From a virus: a stretch of 52,233 nucleotides of DNA. Positions 4,067 to 50,688 of the stretch are shown here, piece by piece. Location: positions 1 through 52,233 of IMG/VR virus record IMGVR_UViG_3300037151_000077; one strand, given 5' to 3'. Each line of letters opens with the position of its first letter. Positions within the stretch are counted from its first letter, which is position 1. The notes beneath the pieces were generated by a model that saw only the letters and a program-made list of their open reading frames with translations, searched no databases and had not been told where the DNA came from. The position numbers and the translations under genes were made by a program.

Positions 4067-4825
4067 TCAGGCCTCCCTTGCGCCCTCTGCTTCGCGCGAC
4101 GGAGAAGTGCTTGCCGCGCTAGCGGCGAGCACTTCGAGCAAAATTTCGGCGAGATCGGCGAGATAGGCGAGATCGGCGAGATCGGCGCGATAGGCGAGAT
4201 CGGCGAGATCGGCGCGATAGGCGAGATCGGCGAGATCGGCGCGATAGGCGAGATAGGCGAGATCGGCGCGATCGGCGCGATAGGCGAGATCGGCGAGATA
4301 GGCGAGATCGGCGAGATAGGCGCGATCGGCGAGATCGGCGAGATCGGCGCGATAGGCGAGATAGGCGAGAATCTTCGGTGGATCCGTCGGTGAAGGCTCG
4401 GCCACCCCCTCTTTCAGGAAATCGATGATTTCAAGTGTTTTCTTTTTCAGCTCGGCGTCCCGAGTTCGTCCGAGCAGCCCACGCTTCTCGTCGGCCAGAA
4501 GAGCCAGAACGAAGCGCTTGTTGACATGGCTCGCGCGAAGGTCAATGCCCACCGGAATCGCCTGTAAGAAGCGCTCTGGCCACAGGAGTGCTTTGCCATT
4601 CGGAAGGGTTTCAAAAATGCGATCTTCGAGATAGGCGAGCTCGATCGGAATTCCGAGTTCCGTCTCATAGGCGGCGTGGTCGCCGCTGTGAATCGTGCAA
4701 CCCACCGCGCACCCTTTGCCGTTTTCCCAATAAGTGCCATGCACCAGCTGGTCCGCCAGGCGATGCGCGCGCACCTGGGCAATTCGTTCGTCTTTGAGTT
4801 TTTCTTTTCCGTGGAAGGTCAGCAT
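4067..4825 (-). CDS. conserved phage protein with long (L/R)A(D/Y) tripeptide repeat
   Basis: 252 residues from the ATG at 4825, which has a GGAG upstream; the open frame further 5' lacks support. The first 165 residues (MLTFHGKEKLKDERIAQV, GCAVGCTIHSGDHAAYETEL, IPVGIDLR) match my memory of a phage and bacterial family of unknown function. From about residue 170 to 225 the protein consists of about 25 tripeptides of the form LAD, LAY, RAD or RAY, coded by 9-base units on DNA 4144-4372. Homologues often carry Ala/Asp/Tyr-rich low-complexity tails, but this one is very regular. A repeating helix or solenoid is plausible. Confidence 0.75.
   Translation of the reverse strand: MLTFHGKEKLKDERIAQVRAHRLADQLVHGTYWENGKGCAVGCTIHSGDHAAYETELGIPIELAYLEDRIFETLPNGKALLWPERFLQAIPVGIDLRASHVNKRFVLALLADEKRGLLGRTRDAELKKKTLEIIDFLKEGVAEPSPTDPPKILAYLAYRADLADLADRAYLADLAYLADLAYRADRADLAYLAYRADLADLAYRADLADLAYRADLADLAYLADLAEILLEVLAASAASTSPSREAEGAREA
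4144..4372 (-). repeat. 9-base minisatellite coding for tripeptides
   Basis: About 25 consecutive variants of a 9-base unit, read on the plus strand as GAT(C/A)GGCG(A/C)G, without spacers. Only two positions vary, switching Asp to Tyr and Leu to Arg. All changes keep the frame of the 4067-4825 gene. Its length is prone to change by replication slippage. Confidence 0.9.
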
Positions 4826-5043
4826 AGGCGTAGTTGCTCCGATCTTGCCGCAATTGGCGGTGCATTGACAGCCGGACTGGGAATGGATTTCAGTACAGTG
4901 AAAAAACAAGTCGAACAGAGCGGTTTACGAACGCCGCTTTTCAAAGCTACGAAACCTGAGGTCATGGCGCGGCAGTTTGTGCACCTGCGTTCGCGCCCGT
5001 GAGAAGAGAACGTCCACTCGAAGCTGCGGATGTGCATTTTCAT
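4819..5043 (-). CDS. small Cys-pair protein
   Basis: 74 residues with CTNCRAM near residue 21 and CSTCFF near residue 43, a two-knuckle zinc-ribbon arrangement. It starts in an ATGA overlap with the upstream gene and overlaps the next gene by seven bases. The C-terminus (SPAVNAPPIAARSEQ) is featureless. Function unknown. Confidence 0.55.
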   Translation of the reverse strand: MKMHIRSFEWTFSSHGRERRCTNCRAMTSGFVALKSGVRKPLCSTCFFTVLKSIPSPAVNAPPIAARSEQLRLC

Positions 5044-8043: not shown

Positions 8044-8369
8044 GCCAGCTTCCCTCCGAGTGCCACCTGGTTCTCCGCGAAGAGAGGCCCTTTAACGGTT
8101 TTGCGGCGTCGGGCCGCTTTAAACCATTTCAGCATCGTGCCACCGTTGGCCATAATCATTTTTCTCCGCGCGGCCTGTAATCCTTCGATCAGATCAGGCG
8201 GTATGTGTTGGGCATCGGCTTCGGCTAGTTCGAGGAATGGATTGAGATCGATCTCGGACATCCAACCTTCACGGAAGAGCTCAATGGCGAATGACGCAAA
8301 ACCTTTCGCCGTGATTCGAAGACATAGGATCTCGTCCGGGTCTGTGTCGTCTACGACGGCTTTTCTCAT
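8040..8369 (-). CDS. hypothetical protein
   Basis: 109 residues, mostly helical by eye, with a long acidic N-terminus (VVDDTDPDEIL) and a basic patch (WFKAARRRKTVKG) toward the end. No family recognised. It is second in the leftward operon, coupled by ATGA to the HTH gene. Confidence 0.6.
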   Translation of the reverse strand: MRKAVVDDTDPDEILCLRITAKGFASFAIELFREGWMSEIDLNPFLELAEADAQHIPPDLIEGLQAARRKMIMANGGTMLKWFKAARRRKTVKGPLFAENQVALGGKLA

Positions 8370-9067
8370 GCGAGCATCCTCCGATACAACTCTTTCCCGC
8401 GACGCGTCGAAATTCCAGCGCGCTCGCAGGCTATGCGGAATAACGCCACCTGGTGGCTTTCGGCGTCCGCTGCTTCGGCTGATCCTACACCGGCCTCGCG
8501 CATCAAGTCGATTTCTCTTTGCAGTTTGCGCCAGTCCCGTTCGTCGAAGTCCTGCTGGGTATAGTTCTGGGGAGGGCGGCGCTCTTCCGCCCCCGTTCTT
8601 TTAGCTTTAGATCTTCTTGCTTCTTCCTTATTGCGGGTGCGATTTTGTCTGACGGTGAGGCATTTTTTGTCCGACGGACCCCCTTTTTCTTCCACAGATT
8701 GTGGAAGATTGAAGTGGAAAACATATTGTGCCGGCCCGACCTTGCCGCTAGCGACGGCGCGAATCTGCCCCGAGTGAAGTAGGCCCCAATCCCGAAACCT
8801 GGCGACCACGCGACCGACGGTCCGCACCGTTACATTGCAACTGGCGGCGATTGTAGACTGCTCCGGCCAGCAGCGGTCGGCGCTCAGTCTGCGATGCGCC
8901 AGCAGGTAATACATGACGGCCGTGTGCAATGCCTTCCATTCAGGGGCGTGCTGCCGCGCCAGGCGGGCGACAATTTTTACCTCGAGAGCTCCAAGCATGA
9001 CTTCGCGAACCTTAGCCTGCAGCTGGCTTTCCTCAGCCTGTGAATATCGGTGGAAGGCTGTGCACAC
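8366..9067 (-). CDS. helix-turn-helix replication/regulatory protein (predicted)
   Basis: 233 residues, first gene of the leftward operon. It starts with GTG at 9067 just after an in-frame stop. Residues about 45-105 form a winged-helix-type segment, with WPEQSTIAASCNVTVRTVGRVVARFRDWGLL giving the recognition helix. A Lys/Arg-rich linker (about 130-165) and a helical C-terminal part follow. This layout resembles phage replication initiators of the DnaD/O-protein class and MarR-like regulators; I cannot decide between them. An 8-base inverted repeat (9058-9122) flanks the start and could be its operator. Confidence 0.65.
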   Translation of the reverse strand: MCTAFHRYSQAEESQLQAKVREVMLGALEVKIVARLARQHAPEWKALHTAVMYYLLAHRRLSADRCWPEQSTIAASCNVTVRTVGRVVARFRDWGLLHSGQIRAVASGKVGPAQYVFHFNLPQSVEEKGGPSDKKCLTVRQNRTRNKEEARRSKAKRTGAEERRPPQNYTQQDFDERDWRKLQREIDLMREAGVGSAEAADAESHQVALFRIACERAGISTRRGKELYRRMLA

Positions 9068-14329: not shown

Positions 14330-14848
14330 GTGAATCTGGCTTTATACGCAAGGGTTTCCAAAGCTCACACCCATCAGGACCCGGAAGCTCAGCTCCAACC
14401 GCTTCGCGCTATGTGCGCAAGTCGCGGCTGGGTGATAGCCAAGGAATATGTCGATCACGGCTGGAGCGGAGCCAAAGAATCAAGACCAGCGCTCGATTCA
14501 ATGATGGCGGATGCCCAGCGTGGCTTTAAGGACTTCGAGGCTGTCGCGGTCTGGAAATTTGACCGTTTCGCTCGTTCTACCAAGCATCTCCTCAAAGCGC
14601 TCGAAACCTTCCAGGGACTCGGAATTGCCTTCATCTCTCTCACCGAATCCGTCGACACCAGCACTCCCTACGGCAAGTTGGTTTTTACCATCCTCGGCGC
14701 CGTCGCAGAGCTCGAACGCAGTCTTATCGCTGAACGCATCAAGAACGGAATGAAGAAATCGGGCGCGAAAAAGCCCGGACGGAAGATCGGAAAATGCGGT
14801 CCTTCGAAGTCAACGCTGTGGAGACAGTCAAAACTGAATTCGTTGTGA
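14330..14848 (+). CDS. serine recombinase (resolvase/invertase type), short C-terminus
   Basis: 172 residues from GTG at 14330. The catalytic domain is clear: LYARVS with the nucleophilic Ser at residue 10, RGWVIAKEYVDHGWSG, FDRFARS with the expected arginines near 80-84, and a long helix E (GAVAELERSLIAERIKNGM). After PGRKIGKCG only about 15 residues remain (SKSTLWRQSKLNSL), where resolvases carry a full helix-turn-helix. DNA binding may therefore be weakened or supplied otherwise. Acts on DNA as a dimer or tetramer. A second, tyrosine-type integrase lies at 49489-50688, so this enzyme may invert or resolve rather than integrate. Confidence 0.85.
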   Translation: MNLALYARVSKAHTHQDPEAQLQPLRAMCASRGWVIAKEYVDHGWSGAKESRPALDSMMADAQRGFKDFEAVAVWKFDRFARSTKHLLKALETFQGLGIAFISLTESVDTSTPYGKLVFTILGAVAELERSLIAERIKNGMKKSGAKKPGRKIGKCGPSKSTLWRQSKLNSL

Positions 14849-32031: not shown

Positions 32032-34647
32032 ATGGCCCAATCAGTAGGCGACGCAGTCCTAACGTTTCTCGGCGACACGACGAACCTCGACCAGGCCTTT
32101 GCCATAGTTGCGTCCGGAGCGGAAAAGTCGATGTCCGCGGCCGCAGACAGCGTGGGTCAGGTTAGCGATTCTCTTCACGACATCAGTTTCGAACTGGACG
32201 CCACGGCCTCCAATGCGGCCTATGCCGGCGGTGAGATCAAAGAGGCAATGAACAAGGCGGCGGTCGCGACGGGCGAGGCGCGCGGGGAAGCGATGCTGCT
32301 CGGCGAAGCCTTCGGCGTTCACCTACCACGCCACGTAACCTCATTTGTGGCCACACTTCCGGGCGTGGGCGAAGCACTCGAGGGCGCATTCGCGGCCACG
32401 GCGGTGCTGTTCCTCATCGACGCCCTGGTGAAAGGCTCTGAGAAACTTTCCCAGTGGGTTGCCAATACTTTTATCTTCACCCAGGCGATGAAGGATTCTG
32501 ACCAGTCCGTCAAGGATCAGAACAAGTCCCTGATCCTGCTCGCCGCGCAAATCGATCAAGACAAACAAGCCCTGTCTAATTTCGGCAAGACACAGGCGGA
32601 GATTAAGAGCGACAAGGTCGCGGCACTCACGGCGGCGATCAAAGACAACGAGGCTAAATTCGCGACGGCCAAGGTAGCGGCTGCTGCCTATGCCACGGCG
32701 GTGAAACTGTCGAAGCCGGAAGAAGCGGCGGAGCAGCTCGGGAAACTTAACGGCGTTCTCGGCTCTGTCGCCTCCGCCTTCGCCAAGGTCGCGGTCGAGG
32801 AGAAAAGCGTCTTCGATTCCATTAAAGCGTTCTTCACCGGCGGTAAAAACCCCGCGGAATTGGCGGCGGAAGCCCAAAAGGCCGGGATGGCGGCCCAAGT
32901 GGCAACAATACAGACCAGCCAAACGATCATCGACGAGAAGGTGAAGCTCGCGCTCGCCGTCAAAGAGCTAACCGTTCAGGAGATTGCGGATCAGGAAGCG
33001 GCCGCAAAAGAGTCGATCAGCAATTCGGAAACGGTCGGGATGGCCAGGATCCAAGTCTGGGCAGCCGACGCGAAGTACCAAGCCGCGTTCGCCAAGGACG
33101 CCGCTGCGGCAACGCTGAAAGTTGAACAAGAGCAGGCCGAAAAAGAATACCAGCTCAAGCTTCAGACGCTGCAAAAAGAGAAGGCCGCCGAGCAATCCGC
33201 TGCCACAGCCTACAGCAAGGTCAGCCACGACCCGCAAACCGACGAAGAATTAACCCTCAAGAAGGACGCAGCGCTAAAGGAAGAAGCGCTGGTCAAGTCG
33301 ACCAACGCGAAGATCGAGGCTCTGGACGCCGAGCACTACGCGAAAGAAAAACAGATCGCCACGGCGGGCGATGAGGCGATCCTTAAGTTGCACGCCGACG
33401 CCGCGGTCCTGGCGTCCGCTGTTGCTAAGGGCTTCTTCCCCAGTCTCCCGGCAGACACGCGGGATCTTCTCAGTATGGACGACGCCGCGAAAAAGCTTGG
33501 CGTCACCCTCTCGAAGAACCTGGAGAAGGGCGCCAATGAAGCTCGATCTGCCCTCGCCCTGCTCGACAAAGAATACAAGGGCGGTCAAATTTCGCTCCGC
33601 GATTATCAGCAGGCTCAGATGGGAGCGTTAGCGGCGCAGATTGCCTATGACAAAGAAATCGGGGTGGCACCCAAACTGATTGCGGCCGAGCAGCATGCCT
33701 ACGATCTGCTCAAGGCGAGTGTCGACAAGGTTTATGCATCAGAGAAGCAGGAAAAGACTTTCTGGGATGGGTTCTCGACCGAGTTTGCCAAGAAAGCGAA
33801 GAACGTAGGCGACGAAGCCCAGGCGATGGGGCAAATGATGGCGAACGCCGCGGCGCAGATGGATCAGGCCTTCGCATCCGCCATTATGGGAGCGCTCAAG
33901 AGCGGCCAAAGCATCGGCGCGGCTTTAGAGAAGGCGACTGCGGAAGTTCTGATCAACCTCGCCACGCAAGCCGGTGCGCACGCCCTGTATTGCACGGCGA
34001 TGGGCATCGCAGAATTGGCATTGGGCGTGACCTCGTCCTCGGCAGCGGAATGGTTTACGGCCGCGGCCGAGTTTGGCCTGGTCGCTGGAGCCGCCGGCGG
34101 AGCGGGGATAGCGATGAGCGGTGGGAGCGGTGGTGGCGGCTCCAAGGGAAATAACGTTTCTGGTTCCAGCAATCCTGGCGGAGTTGGTCAGTCGAGCTCC
34201 TCGGGCGGCGGAGTCAATCAAACCGGGACCGTCCCTAAGCTTGCAACGGGCGGAATCGTGTCGAACCGGACGATGTTCATGGCGGGAGATAGTCCGTCGG
34301 GCGGCGATGCCGAGGAAGCGATTGTGCCGCTCTCGGATCCATCGGCTTTGGCGAAGATCTCAAATGCACTCGCGATGCGTGCGCCCTCGGCGGCCATGAC
34401 GTCTTCCGCGGCGGCAGTGGCCTCGGCTTCGGCGCCGTCATCTGATGCAAACTCGGGCGGCGGAGCAGGCGACTCTTCCTCTGGAGGTGGTGGCGGAGAT
34501 ACTCATCTCCACCTCAACGTTAAAGGCGGCGTGCTCGATTCCGGTACTCTGAAAAAGACGATGACCAAATATCAGCGCATGCTGCAGCAGAACCGCGCTA
34601 ACTTCACTTCCTCGAATTCGCTCCGCGTCACGAAAAGGTCCCAATGA
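32032..34647 (+). CDS. tape measure protein
   Basis: 871 residues, the longest tail gene besides the repeat protein. N-terminal VGDAVLTFLGDTTNLDQAFAIV, a hydrophobic stretch near residues 100-140 (FVATLPGVGEALEGAFAATAVLFLIDALV), long helical Ala/Lys/Glu repeats (about 150-610), and a Gly/Ser-rich C-terminus with VPKLATGGIVSNRTMFMAGD and EEAIVPLSD, a common end of tape measures. It sets tail length and takes part in DNA injection. Weak ribosome site. Confidence 0.9.
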   Translation: MAQSVGDAVLTFLGDTTNLDQAFAIVASGAEKSMSAAADSVGQVSDSLHDISFELDATASNAAYAGGEIKEAMNKAAVATGEARGEAMLLGEAFGVHLPRHVTSFVATLPGVGEALEGAFAATAVLFLIDALVKGSEKLSQWVANTFIFTQAMKDSDQSVKDQNKSLILLAAQIDQDKQALSNFGKTQAEIKSDKVAALTAAIKDNEAKFATAKVAAAAYATAVKLSKPEEAAEQLGKLNGVLGSVASAFAKVAVEEKSVFDSIKAFFTGGKNPAELAAEAQKAGMAAQVATIQTSQTIIDEKVKLALAVKELTVQEIADQEAAAKESISNSETVGMARIQVWAADAKYQAAFAKDAAAATLKVEQEQAEKEYQLKLQTLQKEKAAEQSAATAYSKVSHDPQTDEELTLKKDAALKEEALVKSTNAKIEALDAEHYAKEKQIATAGDEAILKLHADAAVLASAVAKGFFPSLPADTRDLLSMDDAAKKLGVTLSKNLEKGANEARSALALLDKEYKGGQISLRDYQQAQMGALAAQIAYDKEIGVAPKLIAAEQHAYDLLKASVDKVYASEKQEKTFWDGFSTEFAKKAKNVGDEAQAMGQMMANAAAQMDQAFASAIMGALKSGQSIGAALEKATAEVLINLATQAGAHALYCTAMGIAELALGVTSSSAAEWFTAAAEFGLVAGAAGGAGIAMSGGSGGGGSKGNNVSGSSNPGGVGQSSSSGGGVNQTGTVPKLATGGIVSNRTMFMAGDSPSGGDAEEAIVPLSDPSALAKISNALAMRAPSAAMTSSAAAVASASAPSSDANSGGGAGDSSSGGGGGDTHLHLNVKGGVLDSGTLKKTMTKYQRMLQQNRANFTSSNSLRVTKRSQ

Positions 34648-40263: not shown

Positions 40264-41751
40264 GTGCGGATCCTCATCGCCATCACCAGCTGTCACAATT
40301 TCCGCGATCGCGCGGACGCCGTGCGCCAGACCTGGGCCTCGGAAGTCGAAGGCGCCGACGTGCGTTATTTTCTCGGCCGAAGCGAAACGCCGGTGAAGTC
40401 GCAGTCGCATCCGGACGAGATCATTCTCGACTGCCCCGATGGCTATCACTATCTCTCGCAGAAAACGCAGCTCATCCGGCGCTGGGCCCTCGAGAACGGC
40501 TACGACTATCTCTGGAAAGTCGACGACGACACGTACGTACGCCCGGAGCGATTGCTTGCTGACTTTCAGAACCTCGATTATGTGGGGAGACTTCGCGGAT
40601 GCTCGGGAAGTTATCCCGGTCCCTACTGCAGCGGATTCACTTATGGCTTAAGCCGCAAGTCGCTGGAGCTGCTGGCACCGATCGAGTGGGGAGCAAGTGA
40701 CGATTTTTCGGAGGACCGCTGGACCGCAAACAAGCTGCTCTCGCTCGGCATCAGCCCGCACAATGAGCCGCGATTCGTAGTGCAGTCCTCGAAGGCCTGC
40801 GCCATCAGCGGCAGGGAAGCGCCGTTGGTTGGTAACGCTGTCATCGCATCTTGCGAGTATTCGCCGAAGGAGATGCGGCGGGTGCATGCGGAGTTCAAAT
40901 CCGGAAAACGATCGGCCCAGGGCGAATATCACAAACCAGCGGGATCTCTCTCGCGCGTGGCGGTGATGGTCAAGACTTTTCTCCGCGACGGTTATCTCAT
41001 GGCCTGTCTCGATGGCCTGGAAAAGAATTTCGCGGACACCAAGATCGTCGTCGTGGACGATGGTTGGGAGACCGGGGTTACATCGACCTTCAACAAAATC
41101 TCACGCGCAGCGGACATGCGGCGCAAGGGCCATGCCTGGATCAATATCCCCTTCGACTCCGGCTTCGGCGCCAAGGCGAACGTGGCGATCGGACATTGCG
41201 ATTCGGAATATGTGCTGATAGCGTCCGATGATTTTGATTTTGCGGATCCCGCGGTTCGCGCCGGCGTGGAGTCGATGCAAAGAGTTCTGGACGCTGTGCC
41301 GTCGCTTGCTCTGGTCAGCGGGCGCGTTGATCGCAATCTCTATGAGTTCTGTTGGGAAGCCGGCGAGAAGAGCCTGCGCGAAATCCCCAGATACCACGGC
41401 TCGGGCGAAGTGGACGGCACGAAGTATCACCTGTGCGATTTGACCGTGAACTATTCCCTCATCCGGACGAAAGTCTTTCAGCCGCAGCACGGGGGGATCC
41501 GCTGGGATGGCGGTAACGTCAAGATCGGCGGTGGAGAACACTCGGCATTCTTCATCGACCTGCAGCGCTCGTATTGGGGCGTCGCTTATGTGGAAGGCGC
41601 TAACATCAATCAGCTGCCCCGCAATTTTCAGTGGATGCACAAGAGCTACCCGACGATGCGGGCGCGCGCGCGAACTCCCGGAAGACCGTGCCTGAAAGCA
41701 CGCGGGATCGATCTTTACATTTTGGCGGATGGGACGGCGGAGGTATCGTGA
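40264..41751 (+). CDS. two-domain glycosyltransferase: GT31-like plus GT2-like
   Basis: 495 residues from GTG 40264. Residues 1-230: MRILIAITSCHNFRDRADAV, RQTWASE, and YDYLWKVDDDTYV with DDD at 87-89 as metal/sugar-nucleotide site, and DDFSEDRWTANKL as acidic catalytic motif: a GT31 (beta-1,3-galactosyl/fringe-like) pattern. Residues about 235-490: LSRVAVMVKTFLRDGYLMACLDGL, KIVVVDDGW, GFGAKANVAIGHCDSEYVLIASDDFDF: GT2-like. It may modify virion proteins or host surface polysaccharide. The fusion of two transferase folds is unusual for a phage of this size. Confidence 0.75.
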   Translation: MRILIAITSCHNFRDRADAVRQTWASEVEGADVRYFLGRSETPVKSQSHPDEIILDCPDGYHYLSQKTQLIRRWALENGYDYLWKVDDDTYVRPERLLADFQNLDYVGRLRGCSGSYPGPYCSGFTYGLSRKSLELLAPIEWGASDDFSEDRWTANKLLSLGISPHNEPRFVVQSSKACAISGREAPLVGNAVIASCEYSPKEMRRVHAEFKSGKRSAQGEYHKPAGSLSRVAVMVKTFLRDGYLMACLDGLEKNFADTKIVVVDDGWETGVTSTFNKISRAADMRRKGHAWINIPFDSGFGAKANVAIGHCDSEYVLIASDDFDFADPAVRAGVESMQRVLDAVPSLALVSGRVDRNLYEFCWEAGEKSLREIPRYHGSGEVDGTKYHLCDLTVNYSLIRTKVFQPQHGGIRWDGGNVKIGGGEHSAFFIDLQRSYWGVAYVEGANINQLPRNFQWMHKSYPTMRARARTPGRPCLKARGIDLYILADGTAEVS

Positions 41752-41975
41752 AGCTGGTTCCGGAGTCTGGCCTGGCGATCTTTTTCTCGGCTTATCCATC
41801 GCCCAATAAAGACCTCGGCGCAATTGAAGGAACAGAAATGCTTCTTTCCGGTCGACCTGCTGGAATCGAACCGTTCAATCGTAAAGGGACACTCGCCAGC
41901 CATCCAAAGACCATCCGGCCAGTGAATGTCAGCCTCCAACGGATGAGAGCAGATGTCGCAGGTGAAGTGCCGCAC
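41715..41975 (-). CDS. antisense small Cys-pair protein
   Basis: 86 residues on the minus strand between two plus-strand glycosyltransferases. It has FTCDICSHPLEAD at the start and KKHFCSFNCAEVF later, a two-knuckle zinc fold commonly seen in phage proteins. The opposite strand has no persuasive frame here. It overlaps the end of the two-domain transferase by 37 bases, tail to tail. Function unknown. Confidence 0.5.
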   Translation of the reverse strand: MRHFTCDICSHPLEADIHWPDGLWMAGECPFTIERFDSSRSTGKKHFCSFNCAEVFIGRWISREKDRQARLRNQLHDTSAVPSAKM

Positions 41976-41989
41976 TCTCGGACTCTAGC

Positions 41990-42625
41990 ATGAAAATTTT
42001 GATCGCAGTAGTCCAATGCACCCGTGACCTCTGGCGGATCCCCGCACACCGGGAGATGCTCGCCGGCCATGGCGCTGACGTGCGATTCTTTTACGGCAAT
42101 CAGAAGGCGGGCGCGCTCGATGTGGTCCGAAGCGACGAGATCGAGCTCGAAACGGATGATGCCTATTACGCACTGACCAAGAAAGTCTGCGGCATCTTCG
42201 AATGGGCTCTCCAGCGCGGCTACGATTTCGTTTTCAAGGTAGATTCCGATACCTGGCTCGACGTCCCAAAGCTTCTGACAGCGGGCTTCGAAGCGCATGA
42301 TTGGGTCGGTTTAATGGGGGACAAAGGGGCGAGCGGCGGAGTAGGACACTGCACTTCGGGCGGCGTGGGAATCTGGTTGAGCCGTCACGCCATGGAAACT
42401 TTTCTCCGTCACTATCCAACAATGCCGGGCGGGAAGATGCACTACTTCGATGACTGGGCATTGTCGCTGACGTTAGCGGATGCGGGGCTCAAGCCCGTGA
42501 ATTCCGATCTATTGTGGAACTTCGATCTCGGGCCGGCAGACAAGGAAACTCTTATAAGCTGGCACGGATGGACGCCGGACGCGGCCCATGTTGAGCAGCG
42601 CGGCGGCGGGGAGTGGGGAAAATGA
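41990..42625 (+). CDS. GT31-like glycosyltransferase
   Basis: 211 residues. Starts MKILIAVVQCTRDLWRIPAH, with HREMLAGHGADVRFFYG as in the other two copies, YDFVFKVDSDTWL with the DSD at residues 85-87, and HYFDDWALSLTLADAG as acidic catalytic segment. GT31-like fold by motif order. ATGA overlap with the next gene. Likely transfers a hexose from a nucleotide sugar; acceptor unknown. Confidence 0.7.
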   Translation: MKILIAVVQCTRDLWRIPAHREMLAGHGADVRFFYGNQKAGALDVVRSDEIELETDDAYYALTKKVCGIFEWALQRGYDFVFKVDSDTWLDVPKLLTAGFEAHDWVGLMGDKGASGGVGHCTSGGVGIWLSRHAMETFLRHYPTMPGGKMHYFDDWALSLTLADAGLKPVNSDLLWNFDLGPADKETLISWHGWTPDAAHVEQRGGGEWGK

Positions 42626-42918
42626 TCAAGGGGTTGATCTACCATCGGCGCTGGTTCGTTCCGAATTTCGTGGCCGCGCGCTTGTTCGATTACGCTGCCC
42701 ATGATCGGCTTCCGTTATGGCAGTTGTTCTTTGCGCCCAGGAGCTTCCGGAGCTTCGCAAAGGGTCTGTGGTGGAATTGCTCTACGTGGACGCTCGACAG
42801 ACTCCCTTGGTTCGCACGCAAGCATGCCATTAACGCGCTCGTCGGCCGAGAACTGCTCAGAGACTTCAGGGCGCTTAATCACGATCACCCGAATTTCGAT
42901 CTGTGCATCAAGTGGTAA
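42622..42918 (+). CDS. hypothetical protein in glycosyltransferase cluster
   Basis: 98 residues, starting inside the transferase stop (ATGA). Very rich in aromatic and basic residues (YHRRWFVPNFVAARLFDYAAH; GLWWNCSTWTLDRLPWFARKH). It could be a peripheral membrane protein. No family recognised. Confidence 0.5.
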   Translation: MIKGLIYHRRWFVPNFVAARLFDYAAHDRLPLWQLFFAPRSFRSFAKGLWWNCSTWTLDRLPWFARKHAINALVGRELLRDFRALNHDHPNFDLCIKW

Positions 42919-42922
42919 AGCC

Positions 42923-43540
42923 ATGGAAACTTCAGAACTAATTCGCAGGGCGCTCGATCTCGGAGCCGTGCAAGTCCCGGAAGAAATATCCGCGCTCGTC
43001 GACCTTCTCAAAAAGCATCAGCCGCGGAACATTCTGGAGATCGGATCCGAGTCCGGAGGAACGTTCTATCTCTGGTGCCAGTTGGCGAAGATTGGCGGGC
43101 TAAAGATTTCGCTCGATCTACCGAGCGGCGATTCGGGGAGCGGCACCTATCGTGATCCAGTCGCACTCGCCGAGCGTACCGCACAGTTCAAGGGATGGTC
43201 GGCCAACGTCCGCGTCGTCACGGGAGATTCGCATGCGCTTGAAACGTGGCGGGAAGTGAACAAATTCCTAGGTCCGCATGCACCCACGCTCGATTTCCTT
43301 TTCATCGACGGAGACCACTCCTATGAAGGCGTGAAGAAAGATTTCGAAGACTATCGCTGCTTTGTGCGACCAGGTGGATTGATCGCGTTCCATGACATCG
43401 TGGACAGCGAGTTTCACCGGAAGCGTGGATGCCAGGTGGCTAAGTTCTGGGAAGAACTGCGGCGCCAACCCGTAACTTTTCCCGCTCAGGAATTCGATCA
43501 TGGGTTGGAATGGGGCGGGATCGGCGTGGTCACCGTTTAG
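42923..43540 (+). CDS. SAM-dependent methyltransferase (Methyltransf_24-like)
   Basis: 205 residues from the ATG at 42923. The SAM-binding motif NILEIGSESGGTFYLW is at about residues 34-49, an acidic strand LDFLFIDGDHSYEGVKKDFEDY follows, then RPGGLIAFHDI. This is the O-methyltransferase/CmcI-like pattern used on sugars and small molecules. In this cluster it probably methylates the glycan made by the transferases; inference from context. Confidence 0.75.
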   Translation: METSELIRRALDLGAVQVPEEISALVDLLKKHQPRNILEIGSESGGTFYLWCQLAKIGGLKISLDLPSGDSGSGTYRDPVALAERTAQFKGWSANVRVVTGDSHALETWREVNKFLGPHAPTLDFLFIDGDHSYEGVKKDFEDYRCFVRPGGLIAFHDIVDSEFHRKRGCQVAKFWEELRRQPVTFPAQEFDHGLEWGGIGVVTV

Positions 43541-43759
43541 GTAGCGGAGCGCGCCCATCATACAAATTTCCAGACAGGCGTGGCAAACGGGGTACGGTCC
43601 GTACCGCGCCGAGGGCGGAGCGTCATCCGGCAGCCAGAAACCTTCGCCGCAATCGATGCAGACTTTCCACACACACGGCGCCGGCTCGCTGGTGAACGCG
43701 GTCTGAACGAGCGGCGGCAATCGAAGAAAAACTCGAATCCTGTTCCGCAACCAAAACAC
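43268..43759 (-). CDS. possible antisense Cys-pair protein
   Basis: Open minus-strand frame of 163 codons that covers the otherwise empty 230 bases after the methyltransferase and 270 bases of its 3' end. The part outside the methyltransferase reads KVCIDCGEGFWLPDDAPPSA and YPVCHACLEIC, a zinc-ribbon-like pair. The rest may be only the antisense of the methyltransferase. Reported with low confidence. Confidence 0.35.
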   Translation of the reverse strand: MFWLRNRIRVFLRLPPLVQTAFTSEPAPCVWKVCIDCGEGFWLPDDAPPSARYGPYPVCHACLEICMMGALRYLNGDHADPAPFQPMIEFLSGKSYGLAPQFFPELSHLASTLPVKLAVHDVMERDQSTWSHKAAIVFEIFLHAFIGVVSVDEKEIERGCMRT

Positions 43760-43773
43760 ACCCGAACTCTAAC

Positions 43774-44037
43774 ATGACCCTCTTCACCAGAATTGCTCTT
43801 CTCGAATTCTTTTCTGCTCTGCTCATCGTCGCAGCGACCAGAGCCTATGTCCTGGGGAACTACCGGGCGACGGCCGTTGTCGAGGTTGCATTCATCACGC
43901 AATGGTTCTACGCGCGCGGGATCTCTTTCGATGATGCGGGATCGAGAAGCTGGAAGCTTGGATATCCGGCCTATCTCCTCGGCGCCGTGGCTGGCACGCT
44001 GATCGGGCTTTTCCTCTCGAAACGGTTCACCTCATGA
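43774..44037 (+). CDS. small membrane protein in glycosyltransferase cluster
   Basis: 87 residues with hydrophobic stretches LLEFFSALLIVAATRAYVL, VVEVAFITQWFYARG and YPAYLLGAVAGTLIGLFL, so two to three membrane helices. ATGA overlap with the downstream transferase. A flippase- or anchor-like partner is conceivable; no family match by eye. Confidence 0.6.
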   Translation: MTLFTRIALLEFFSALLIVAATRAYVLGNYRATAVVEVAFITQWFYARGISFDDAGSRSWKLGYPAYLLGAVAGTLIGLFLSKRFTS

Positions 44038-44810
44038 AAGCACTGATCGCAATCTCTTCGTGCGGCGACTTCGAAGCGAACGGGAACAACCAGGCTATGA
44101 GGGATACCTGGCTTAAAGATGTAAATATATTTACAAATCTCGACTACAAGTTCTTTTTCGGAGTAGGCCAGAACGCTCCCCAGCTCGAGGACTCAGTCCT
44201 CTTGCCCGACGTCGACGATGGCTACGGATCCCTCACCTACAAAACGAGGGCGTCGCTGCGCTGGGCGCATGAACGCGGATACACGCATGTCTTCCGCTGC
44301 TTTCCAGATACGTTTGTCAGCGTCGATCGGCTGATGGCCTGCCATCCTCACGAATTCGATTTCTATGGCGACTTCAGAAGCGAAGAAGGCGGACGCCCCG
44401 ATGGTGGAACGGGGAAGCAGATGCCCACTCTTCAGGAAGCTCAGAACTATGCATCCGGTGGCGCAGGGTACTGGTTGAGCCGCAGAGCTTTTGAATACCT
44501 GCTCGATGCTCCAATCCTCGGAGTCTGGCGAGATGAGCTGATGACCTACGTCGAGGATCTGTGGGTTGGAAACATCTTGGGAAAATGCGGGACGGTGCTG
44601 CGCTACTTCGATGACACAAGATTCTGTAACCATGGCTCCCGTATGTGGCCGAACCTGCGAAATGACCAGATCACCGCGCACCTGTCCTGCCCGGAGCGCT
44701 TCGACAAAGCCTTCATGTATGCGGCCCACGCGGCGTTCAGCATGAAGCTCACCATGGAAGAAGTCGAGCGGCTCAGGATCAGCTTCCTTCGAGACATCCC
44801 GAAATCTTAA
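44034..44810 (+). CDS. GT31-like glycosyltransferase, altered DXD
   Basis: 258 residues. Starts MKALIAISSCGDFEANGNNQ, with MRDTWLKD as in GT31 enzymes, YTHVFRCFPDTFV in place of the DXD (the first Asp is Phe90, the middle is Pro91, only Asp92 remains), GGAGYWLSRRAFEYLL and YVEDLWVGNILGKCG (the EDVWVG-type motif). The loss of two metal-site residues suggests altered metal dependence, a changed donor site, or inactivity. Last gene of the cluster. Confidence 0.7.
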   Translation: MKALIAISSCGDFEANGNNQAMRDTWLKDVNIFTNLDYKFFFGVGQNAPQLEDSVLLPDVDDGYGSLTYKTRASLRWAHERGYTHVFRCFPDTFVSVDRLMACHPHEFDFYGDFRSEEGGRPDGGTGKQMPTLQEAQNYASGGAGYWLSRRAFEYLLDAPILGVWRDELMTYVEDLWVGNILGKCGTVLRYFDDTRFCNHGSRMWPNLRNDQITAHLSCPERFDKAFMYAAHAAFSMKLTMEEVERLRISFLRDIPKS

Positions 44811-48228: not shown

Positions 48229-48259
48229 TTGACTCCGGCCTTTTCTTTTTTGCTATACT
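48229..48259 (+). promoter_or_regulatory. candidate promoter for the ASCH-like gene
   Basis: TTGACT at 48229-48234 and TATACT at 48254-48259, spacer 19. The GTG start at 48271 lies twelve bases downstream, again hinting at a leaderless or near-leaderless mRNA. A T-rich run fills the spacer. Confidence 0.4.
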
Positions 48260-48270
48260 CCGATCCCGTC

Positions 48271-48678
48271 GTGGGTCTCTATAACTTCCAGCCGCGGTTC
48301 GTGCCCTTCGTGAAAGATGGATCGAAGAGGCACACCATCCGCGCCAAGCGTGTACATCCCGACAAACCCGGCAACACGCTGCATCTCTACATCGGCCTCC
48401 GAACCCGGGGCGTCGAACTCATCGGCCGCTCGACCTGCCTCCACGTGGAAGATATTGTTATCAGCGAGGCGCTCCAAGTGTTCGTCGACGGCGTGGAACT
48501 GTCGGCCTCGGAAAAGAACGCGCTGGCATTCTGTGATGGGTTCCGATCTCGCGGCGTCGAGCACGCCTTCGAAGAAATGATGGAGTTCTGGGAAGGGCGA
48601 CTTCCGTTCGTGGGCGACATCATTCACTGGAGCAAGGATCTGCAGCAAGGAAAGGAGAGGTGTCATGTACCGAAATGA
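48271..48678 (+). CDS. ASCH-domain-like protein
   Basis: 135 residues from GTG 48271. It reads VGLYNFQPRFVPFVKDGSKR, HTIRAKRVHPDKPGNTLHLY, GLRTRGVELIGRSTC and MMEFWEGRLPFVGDIIHW. This is a phage family I know with an ASCH-like fold (RNA-binding or modified-base recognising). The end overlaps the following gene by 14 bases. Confidence 0.75.
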   Translation: MGLYNFQPRFVPFVKDGSKRHTIRAKRVHPDKPGNTLHLYIGLRTRGVELIGRSTCLHVEDIVISEALQVFVDGVELSASEKNALAFCDGFRSRGVEHAFEEMMEFWEGRLPFVGDIIHWSKDLQQGKERCHVPK

Positions 48679-49066: not shown

Positions 49067-49399
49067 TTACGCCGCCTTCGCTGTTTTTCCTCCCGGCGGT
49101 GTGATCGCATCCTTCGCGGCTTTGGCCATGCGGAATTTTACGACCGTCCGCGCCTTGATCTGAATCGCTTCGCCGTTCTGCGGGTTGCGGCCGATGCGGG
49201 CCTTGCGATGCGCCTTCACTAACCTTCCAATTCCAGGCAGCACGAAGACGCCGTTTTTCTTCGTCTCTTTGATGGCTATGTCGGCGAGCTCCTCGAGGAA
49301 CGAGGCGGCCGTCTTATTGTTCACTTCAAGTTCCTCGGCGAGATGCCGGGTCAGTTGCGTCTTGGTCATCGTCAGCGTTGTCATTTTTAGCGTGGTCAT
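49067..49399 (-). CDS. HU-family DNA-binding protein
   Basis: 110 residues from the ATG at 49399 with GGAGG nine bases upstream. After a Met/Thr-rich start it follows the HU pattern: TKTQLTRHLAEELEVNNKTAASFLEELADIAIKETKKNGVFVLPGIGRL, RKARIGRNPQNGEAIQI and VKFRMAKAAKDAI. HU proteins bend and compact DNA and often help integrase complexes. Diverges from the integrase gene with 89 bases between. Confidence 0.9.
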   Translation of the reverse strand: MTTLKMTTLTMTKTQLTRHLAEELEVNNKTAASFLEELADIAIKETKKNGVFVLPGIGRLVKAHRKARIGRNPQNGEAIQIKARTVVKFRMAKAAKDAITPPGGKTAKAA

Positions 49400-49488
49400 T
49401 CGGGGAAATCCTCCGACCCGCATACTAACTGAGTTTTCCACCGCTTTCCACAGACCGCACAGGAGAGATCGGCGCTACGATCCCGCCG

Positions 49489-50688
49489 ATGCCCGCTTTA
49501 GCCCAGCTGCTGGCTTTCCCCTCGAGACCGAAACAGCGTCTCGCCATATTGCCAGTCGAAGCGGCCGCTCCGGATCTGATTCTCACCCCGCCCGTTCCAC
49601 CCCCTCCGAAAAAACCTCGCCGCCGGCGCAAGCCTCCGGTCTCGCTCTCGGACGCGCAGCTGCTGGCTTTGCTCGAGCGGGCAAAAGCTCATCGCGAGCG
49701 CGACTGGGTCATGATTCTGGTGACCTACTGGCACGGGCTGCGGGCTTCTGAGACGATCTCCCTGCGCGAGCGCGACTTCGACCTGGCGGAAGGGACGGTC
49801 AAATTCGTCCGCGGCAAGGGGTCGGATGGCGGAGAGCAGACGCTGCAGGAGCACGAGAATCCGCTGCTCAATGAGCGCGCGGCGATCGCAGCCTGGCTGA
49901 AGGACCGCGGCCAGTTCGGAGTGAAGGGCGGAGCGAAACGGCAAGTTGGGAGGAACCATGCGCACAATTCAGATTCTTCTGTGGATTCTGGTCGTTCTCG
50001 AAGTGTCGGAGTGGATCACGTTTCTAATCATCAAGCCGTGGAGGCAGCGCTAGCCGCGAATTCGGCTGAAGGCAAGCAGCCAGCCGGTGGCGATCAAGCC
50101 CATGATCAGCCAGCCGTACCAGGGTATAGCGACGACGACCGAGGCCGCGCATACGCCGAAGGTCAAAACGACGACGGCGATCGCCTGCCAGTGGGACATG
50201 AGAAAAAGATTACACCCTCAAAAACCAGACAAAGTAATGAGATTGTCAGAAATTTGGGGGGTCCCACGAAAGTGCCACCTGGGGATATCTGGGCTTGGCC
50301 GCCTGATAAGCCAGCTGGTGGCTGCAAACCCTCACCCGACCCCTCGCGTGCTGCCCTAGAGCCTCCAGCGCCGCCGCAAACCCCCTCGGATCGTCTCTTC
50401 CCAATCACCCGGCAGCATTTCTGGGCTATCGTTCACGGTTACGCCCTGGCTGCAGGGATCCCCAGGCGCAAGTGTAAAACCCACATGCTGAAGCACACGA
50501 TCGCCAAGCACTTAGTCCGGGCCGGACACCCCTTGAATGAGATCCAGGAGTGGATGGGCTGGTCATCGATCGAGACGATGAACTGGTACACGCGTGCCGA
50601 CGAGGAAGAGCTAGGTCATCGGATCGGTGATAGCATTCGGGCGAAGCAAGGCCTGCGCCAGGTGCAGCAGGGGAGTTTGTTCTCGTGA
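49489..50688 (+). CDS. int: tyrosine recombinase/integrase interrupted by an in-frame insert
   Basis: 399-codon open frame. N-terminal half: SLSDAQLLALLERAKAHRERDWVMILVTYWHGLRASETISLRERDFDL, with the first catalytic Arg in GLRASE near residue 85. C-terminal half: SDRLFPITRQHFWAIV, CKTHMLKHTIAKHLVRAGHPLNEIQEWMGW with the second catalytic site (HMLKHT in place of HxxRH), and NWYTRAD with the nucleophilic Tyr. Between residues about 145 and 300 is a hydrophilic, unrelated stretch. The same DNA codes two tiny membrane proteins (49958-50053 plus, 50050-50199 minus). The integrase may be a functional enzyme with a loop, or two halves of a disrupted gene. Confidence 0.75.
   Translation: MPALAQLLAFPSRPKQRLAILPVEAAAPDLILTPPVPPPPKKPRRRRKPPVSLSDAQLLALLERAKAHRERDWVMILVTYWHGLRASETISLRERDFDLAEGTVKFVRGKGSDGGEQTLQEHENPLLNERAAIAAWLKDRGQFGVKGGAKRQVGRNHAHNSDSSVDSGRSRSVGVDHVSNHQAVEAALAANSAEGKQPAGGDQAHDQPAVPGYSDDDRGRAYAEGQNDDGDRLPVGHEKKITPSKTRQSNEIVRNLGGPTKVPPGDIWAWPPDKPAGGCKPSPDPSRAALEPPAPPQTPSDRLFPITRQHFWAIVHGYALAAGIPRRKCKTHMLKHTIAKHLVRAGHPLNEIQEWMGWSSIETMNWYTRADEEELGHRIGDSIRAKQGLRQVQQGSLFS
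49958..50053 (+). CDS. tiny membrane protein embedded in the integrase frame
   Basis: 31 residues (MRTIQILLWILVVLEVSEWI then TFLIIKPWRQR), a single membrane helix with basic end. The ribosome site GGGAGGAACC directly precedes the ATG. It lies in the +1 frame relative to the integrase and ends with a TAG that shares a CTAG palindrome with the stop of the opposite gene. Too short for family assignment. Confidence 0.5.
   Translation: MRTIQILLWILVVLEVSEWITFLIIKPWRQR
50050..50199 (-). CDS. tiny two-helix membrane protein, antisense in the integrase frame
   Basis: 49 residues (MSHWQAIAVVVLTFGVCAAS, VVVAIPWYGWLIMGLIATGW, LLAFSRIRG): two hydrophobic helices split by IPWYGW. Its TAG (50052-50050) overlaps the TAG of the plus-strand peptide in a CTAG palindrome. 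Such hydrophobicity on an antisense strand is not expected by chance from the hydrophilic integrase frame. Function unknown. Confidence 0.5.
   Translation of the reverse strand: MSHWQAIAVVVLTFGVCAASVVVAIPWYGWLIMGLIATGWLLAFSRIRG

Follow-up and report, generated by a model that had tools for sequence, protein, structure and literature searches.

The int gene examined here encodes a phage tyrosine recombinase whose catalytic domain is interrupted by a long, disordered linker, and the corresponding loop of most members of its clade accommodates a conserved palindrome. This linker anatomy is real and unusual. The likely explanation, which is given about even odds (a probability of roughly 0.5), is a variant in bacterial phages of the strategy adopted by archaeal suicidal integrases, in which integration at a site within int separates the gene (PMC8371274). 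By analogy with those systems, there is about an even chance that the palindrome serves this recombinase as its own core site and that the site has come to lie within int. A fuller version of the proposal, in which the clade consists of self-splitting integrases with the site in the middle of the catalytic domain, a disordered linker kept open and small membrane genes carried at the future prophage ends, is advanced more tentatively, at somewhat short of an even chance.

The window, that is the whole stretch of 52,233 nucleotides of viral DNA analysed, harbours int on the plus strand at positions 49489–50688 as a single open frame of 399 codons without a stop (frame list, Pfam), as the first-pass annotation of this DNA had stated. 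The 399-residue product is a minimal, catalytic-domain-only tyrosine recombinase of bacterial tailed phages. It matches PF00589 in two separate stretches (E 5.3e-23), scoring 82 bits against a curated cut-off of 27.1; this is its sole Pfam match, PF16795 (Phage_integr_3) being absent. The folds of XerA, XerH and IntI are structural matches to this compact recombinase family. Nine related recombinases were gathered from IMG/VR scans, giving ten sequences with that of the window. The alignments place Arg I (HGLRASE) and the beta-hairpin Lys (RGKGS) in an N-terminal half of the catalytic domain (49630–49935, plus strand) and the HMLKH motif, GW and Tyr367 in a C-terminal half (50395–50688, plus strand). 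Arg I, Lys, His II and Tyr are invariant across all ten, the Arg II position of the R-K-H-R-H/W-Y set is occupied by Lys in 10/10, and a core-binding domain is absent throughout, the compact members beginning directly with the catalytic domain. An HU-like DNA-bending protein gene (49067–49441, minus strand; PF00216, 9.1e-23) adjoins int here and in L038, and a conserved neighbour, phrog_8581 (48235–48678, plus strand), also adjoins int in L002. The hosts are probably Acidobacteriota, judging from the Tunturi_3 integrase, a distant match that is compact and devoid of the loop palindrome, and from host-like genes in the related record G009. Two scans for relatives in genomes found none; L012, considered as a genome relative, was rejected as a histidine kinase matching METMNWY.

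Between the two catalytic halves lie some 450 bases (49936–50394, plus strand) that align with no integrase domain, which bears out the earlier description of a recombinase in two parts. The encoded linker is unconserved at the protein level and has no predicted structure: an AlphaFold model of the window enzyme, built on four sequences and poor (pLDDT 44), was used for this point only and displays no secondary structure in the linker. In another, good model (mean pLDDT 83) the loop, residues 96–112, is the sole segment with pLDDT below 50, and it sits on the surface, flanked by the hairpin that bears the Lys and by the helix of the His-x-x-Lys motif. Over the left linker the codon-position GC of the int frame is.75/.47/.47, versus.72/.44/.82 in the N-terminal half, and is not coding-like; the linkers of the relatives are likewise irregular. 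The frame is nevertheless kept open in the window and in three relatives, with probabilities of encountering no stop by chance of.003 and.016–.024, respectively. The search for uninterrupted versions that had been recommended was successful, as compact integrases of 184–270 aa were found. Linkers exceed 100 aa in four enzymes (window, L001, L002 and L005), measure 25–39 aa in L032, L033 and L038, and shrink to 6–12 aa in the outgroups L054, L056 and L057. The seven loop-bearing integrases, including that of the window, group together in a single clade (support 90/90); the loop is at the same place in all of them and spans 25–162 aa. The window linker is no simple insert: a long linker is common to L001, L002 and L005 and the membrane frames described below occur in the window only, so the part that bears them appears from these comparisons to be a late addition.

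A clear palindrome, GCAACAATC-N6-GATTGTTAC and variants, is present in the loop DNA of five of the six other clade members. L001, L002 and L005 share identical arms around differing centres (AAAATGCAACAATC-N6-GATTGTTACATTTT), and L032 and L033 carry AAAATGCGACAATC-N6-GACTGTCGCA and AAAATGCGACATTC-N6-GAGTGTTGCATTTT. The arms pair at 10/11 positions in the first four of these genes and at 9/11 in L033. At an arm length of 11 the palindrome is the top inverted repeat of each gene, tied in L033, and in the records of L001, L002, L005 and L032 only ∼0.007–0.012 repeats of 10/11 would be expected at any one place of this kind; L038 contains a different, weaker palindrome (9/11, tied for top). Where the residues encoded by the palindrome are conserved, the same codon is used in 8/8, 9/10 and 8/8 cases, compared with fractions of.63,.50 and.51 elsewhere (p =.024,.010 and.0045), a pattern that points to conservation at the DNA level beyond the needs of the protein. 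The first-pass annotation had set against its own proposals the case of a loop conserved as protein alongside unconserved membrane frames; the comparison did not yield that outcome, and what the relatives keep of the loop is mainly the codons of the palindrome, where it is the DNA that is conserved. The motif occurs once in each of the whole records G001–G003, and a repressor operator, which would recur, was rejected on this ground; a tRNA-type attP was discarded too, as there is no tRNA and no Rfam match.

In the window itself the palindrome is a weak remnant, CAGACAAAG-TAATGA-GATTGTCAG (50219–50257; 8/11, RNA z −2.1), which retains GACAA/TTGTC at the aligned position and little else. The window enzyme is nearer to that of L001 than the L005 enzyme is, yet its palindrome is weak; the site therefore does not track the relatedness of the enzymes in any simple way, and in the window it has either diverged or changed in function. 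A separate near-palindrome, AAGCCAGCNGCTGGCTT, recurs at window positions 9013, 47270, 50308 and 51255 and in relatives; some copies are followed by T runs and are terminator-like, and one copy lies within the int linker.

The window linker also contains two small membrane frames, which are window-specific; as previously reported, they are disposed tail to tail, with stops overlapping in CTAG: a 31-residue single-helix peptide on the plus strand (49958–50053) and a 49-residue two-helix protein on the minus strand (50050–50199). The ribosome-binding-like site of the former, GGGAGG (49948–49953, plus strand), is a good motif whose distance of 4 nt upstream of the ATG is slightly short; the minus-strand frame has no clear ribosome site. 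Of 246 ATG frames of 28–80 aa in the window, five reach a hydropathy of at least 2.0, and both small frames are among these five. Synonymous recoding of the linker yields both in 1/20,000 trials (5e-5) and codon shuffles in 0/20,000, with thresholds set post hoc at the observed values. Their codon-position GC (.48/.32/.71 and.55/.51/.86) is coding-like. An origin of both by chance is unlikely, and the two genes are presumably expressed. No homologs were detected in phages, PHROGs or Pfam, nor, for the 49-residue protein, in IMG/VR, and neither frame was seen in the nine related recombinase genes.

The mechanism that would connect these features runs as follows. In this clade a surface loop would have become a disordered linker, and the palindrome in its DNA, with its 6-nt centre, would serve the recombinase as core site. 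As long as the phage is free, int would be whole and the enzyme produced. Recombination between the attP-like palindrome and a host site would leave the N-terminal half at one end of the prophage and the C-terminal half at the other, and this separation of int upon integration would switch the enzyme off. The DNA beside the palindrome would thereby come to lie at the edge of the prophage, a position in which, provided no stop closed the frame, linkers might grow and cargo accumulate. Prophage ends often hold accessory genes, and the membrane frames of the window fit such a place: the two convergent genes would be cargo beside a site whose palindrome has partly decayed. A split integrase, one of the possibilities raised at first pass, would hold only in the sense that integration at the embedded site would divide the gene; in the free phage each of the seven loop-clade members has an unbroken frame. 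Among the whole-int records listed, phage genes flank int on both sides. A lysogeny switch, also raised then, is possible as a consequence of splitting. Because no split or integrated copy of int, and no attB, was found in the viral and genome scans, the mechanism has the standing of a prediction. The compact enzyme may, moreover, be not the only, or not the actual, integrase: a further tyrosine integrase, of full size, is encoded near it both in G004, the record of L032 (L048, 8303–9427), and in G009 (33523–34527).

The outgroup records G008 and G009 bear on the role of the motif. Their int genes have no loop palindrome, and the best counterparts of the motif in the whole genome are located 3′ of int, at distances of 52, 18 and 442 bp (GTAACAATTCCTAGTTTTGTTAC versus GCAACAATCTCCTAGGATTGTTAC). 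This immediate proximity suggests that the recombinase family uses the motif as a core site, located 3′ of int in the outgroup and within int in the clade of the window, in which case the motif would be the crossover site. Two copies in G008 have 17 bp in common (ATTTCGTTTTGTTACCT) and disagree in the left arm, the pattern expected of att half-sites; the left arm is missing or poor at G008 34526 and at G009 32123. The sites form arrays 3′ of int with small ORFs in between, three sites in G009 (L061, 13990–14700) and two in G008 (L059, 15640–16400), and three small-ORF stops (33872, 31943 and 32126) abut a site. Integron-like cassettes are one possible identity of these arrays, remnants of att sites in tandem another, and the sites also fit terminators between convergent genes. 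Beyond its sites, G009 continues into host-like genes at its right end (OMP barrel/PDZ) and the second integrase. A long repeat of G008 (L058/L059; 1–98, 31402 and 33139), which precedes int and one other gene and is identical to the start of the contig over 98 bp, was rejected as an att and looks like an upstream repeat element.

A different interpretation, judged unlikely, is that the palindrome works at the RNA level in the int message, as a hairpin or some different regulatory element, for instance slowing or attenuating int expression, with attP elsewhere. Strong predicted folds in five relatives (z −3.6 to −6.4) agree with it, as do the two DNA mismatches of L033, both of which become G-U pairs in RNA; however, a C-A mismatch is retained in three relatives, and outside int the motif recurs at the two sites with a deficient left arm, where no hairpin is possible. 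It is similarly improbable that the linker is an ordinary disordered one in which the small frames are incidental, low-constraint sequence with at most a spacing role. The weak palindrome of the window, the absence of conservation at the protein level and the lack of homologs of the small proteins are all in keeping with such a linker, but it leaves unexplained the DNA conservation of the palindrome in relatives and small frames that lie far above the recoding nulls and possess coding-like GC.

Very doubtful, finally, is an integron-like mini-cassette, according to which short genes are captured at recombinase sites and the two-ORF segment was caught inside int. The confinement of that segment to the window and the outgroup arrays, with their three ORFs ending at a site, speak in its favour, whereas site centres differ within one array and tandem att remnants account for the arrays equally well, given the host-like right end of G009. 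A clean form of the mobile cassette envisaged at first pass is unsupported, as no direct repeat above chance flanks the window segment. An integron is defined by an IntI that has an insert of its own, an attI and cassettes that each carry an attC. G008 and G009 have site arrays with small ORFs, the window has no cassette boundaries and IntI4 is only a distant match.

The self-splitting reading finds its closest counterpart in the SSV-type integrases (SSV1, SSV2, pTN3, pT26-2), for which a site within int has been described (PMC8371274) and which a 2021 review regards as exclusive to archaea. The likeness lies in a candidate site within int where integration would split the gene. In contrast with those archaeal viruses and plasmids, the present genes belong to bacterial tailed phages; the catalytic domain is whole on Int(C) in the SSV type, whereas here the candidate site falls between catalytic motifs, PF00589 is matched without PF16795, no tRNA-like site was seen and the split form is a prediction. 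In mycobacteriophage BPs, integration-dependent immunity relies on an attP within the repressor gene (PMC4557955); there, too, attP lies in a phage coding gene and integration alters the encoded protein, but the candidate site here is in int rather than in a repressor gene, which places it outside the BPs type. Xer, IntI and IntBrujita are classed as simple tyrosine recombinases (PMC8138268), with which the compact enzymes share the fold, the catalytic layout and, in the candidate site, a simple palindrome; XerA, XerH and IntI4 rank with the best matches by sequence and by structure. The compact enzymes differ in the Lys replacing Arg II and in the long linker with its embedded candidate site, and, as both simple and complex classes have a core-binding domain preceding the catalytic one, its absence here leaves the family outside either class. 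FimB and FimE are of similarly small size and ∼30% identical, but the present enzymes are phage-borne, have Lys for Arg II and are associated with no invertible segment with paired sites that could be found.

If the self-splitting reading is correct, a site between catalytic motifs in bacterial phages would imply more than one origin of the strategy. The system would also amount to a compact one-way integration module, rendering the question of how such phages excise testable, and a single coding region would host a recombination site together with overlapping small genes.

Further features were recorded in passing. Besides the tyrosine recombinase, the window encodes a serine resolvase (PF00239) at 14330–14845. 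Galactosyltransferase/fringe-like and glycosyltransferase genes cluster with a methyltransferase gene beside tail genes at 40264–44807, and a protein with YLADLAYRADLADL repeats and no Pfam match is encoded at 4070–4909 on the minus strand. Just 3′ of int in L005, at 8319–8459, stretches of major capsid gene sequence appear in altered order (VRFVQDEMTFRF, DSRADGSRMG).
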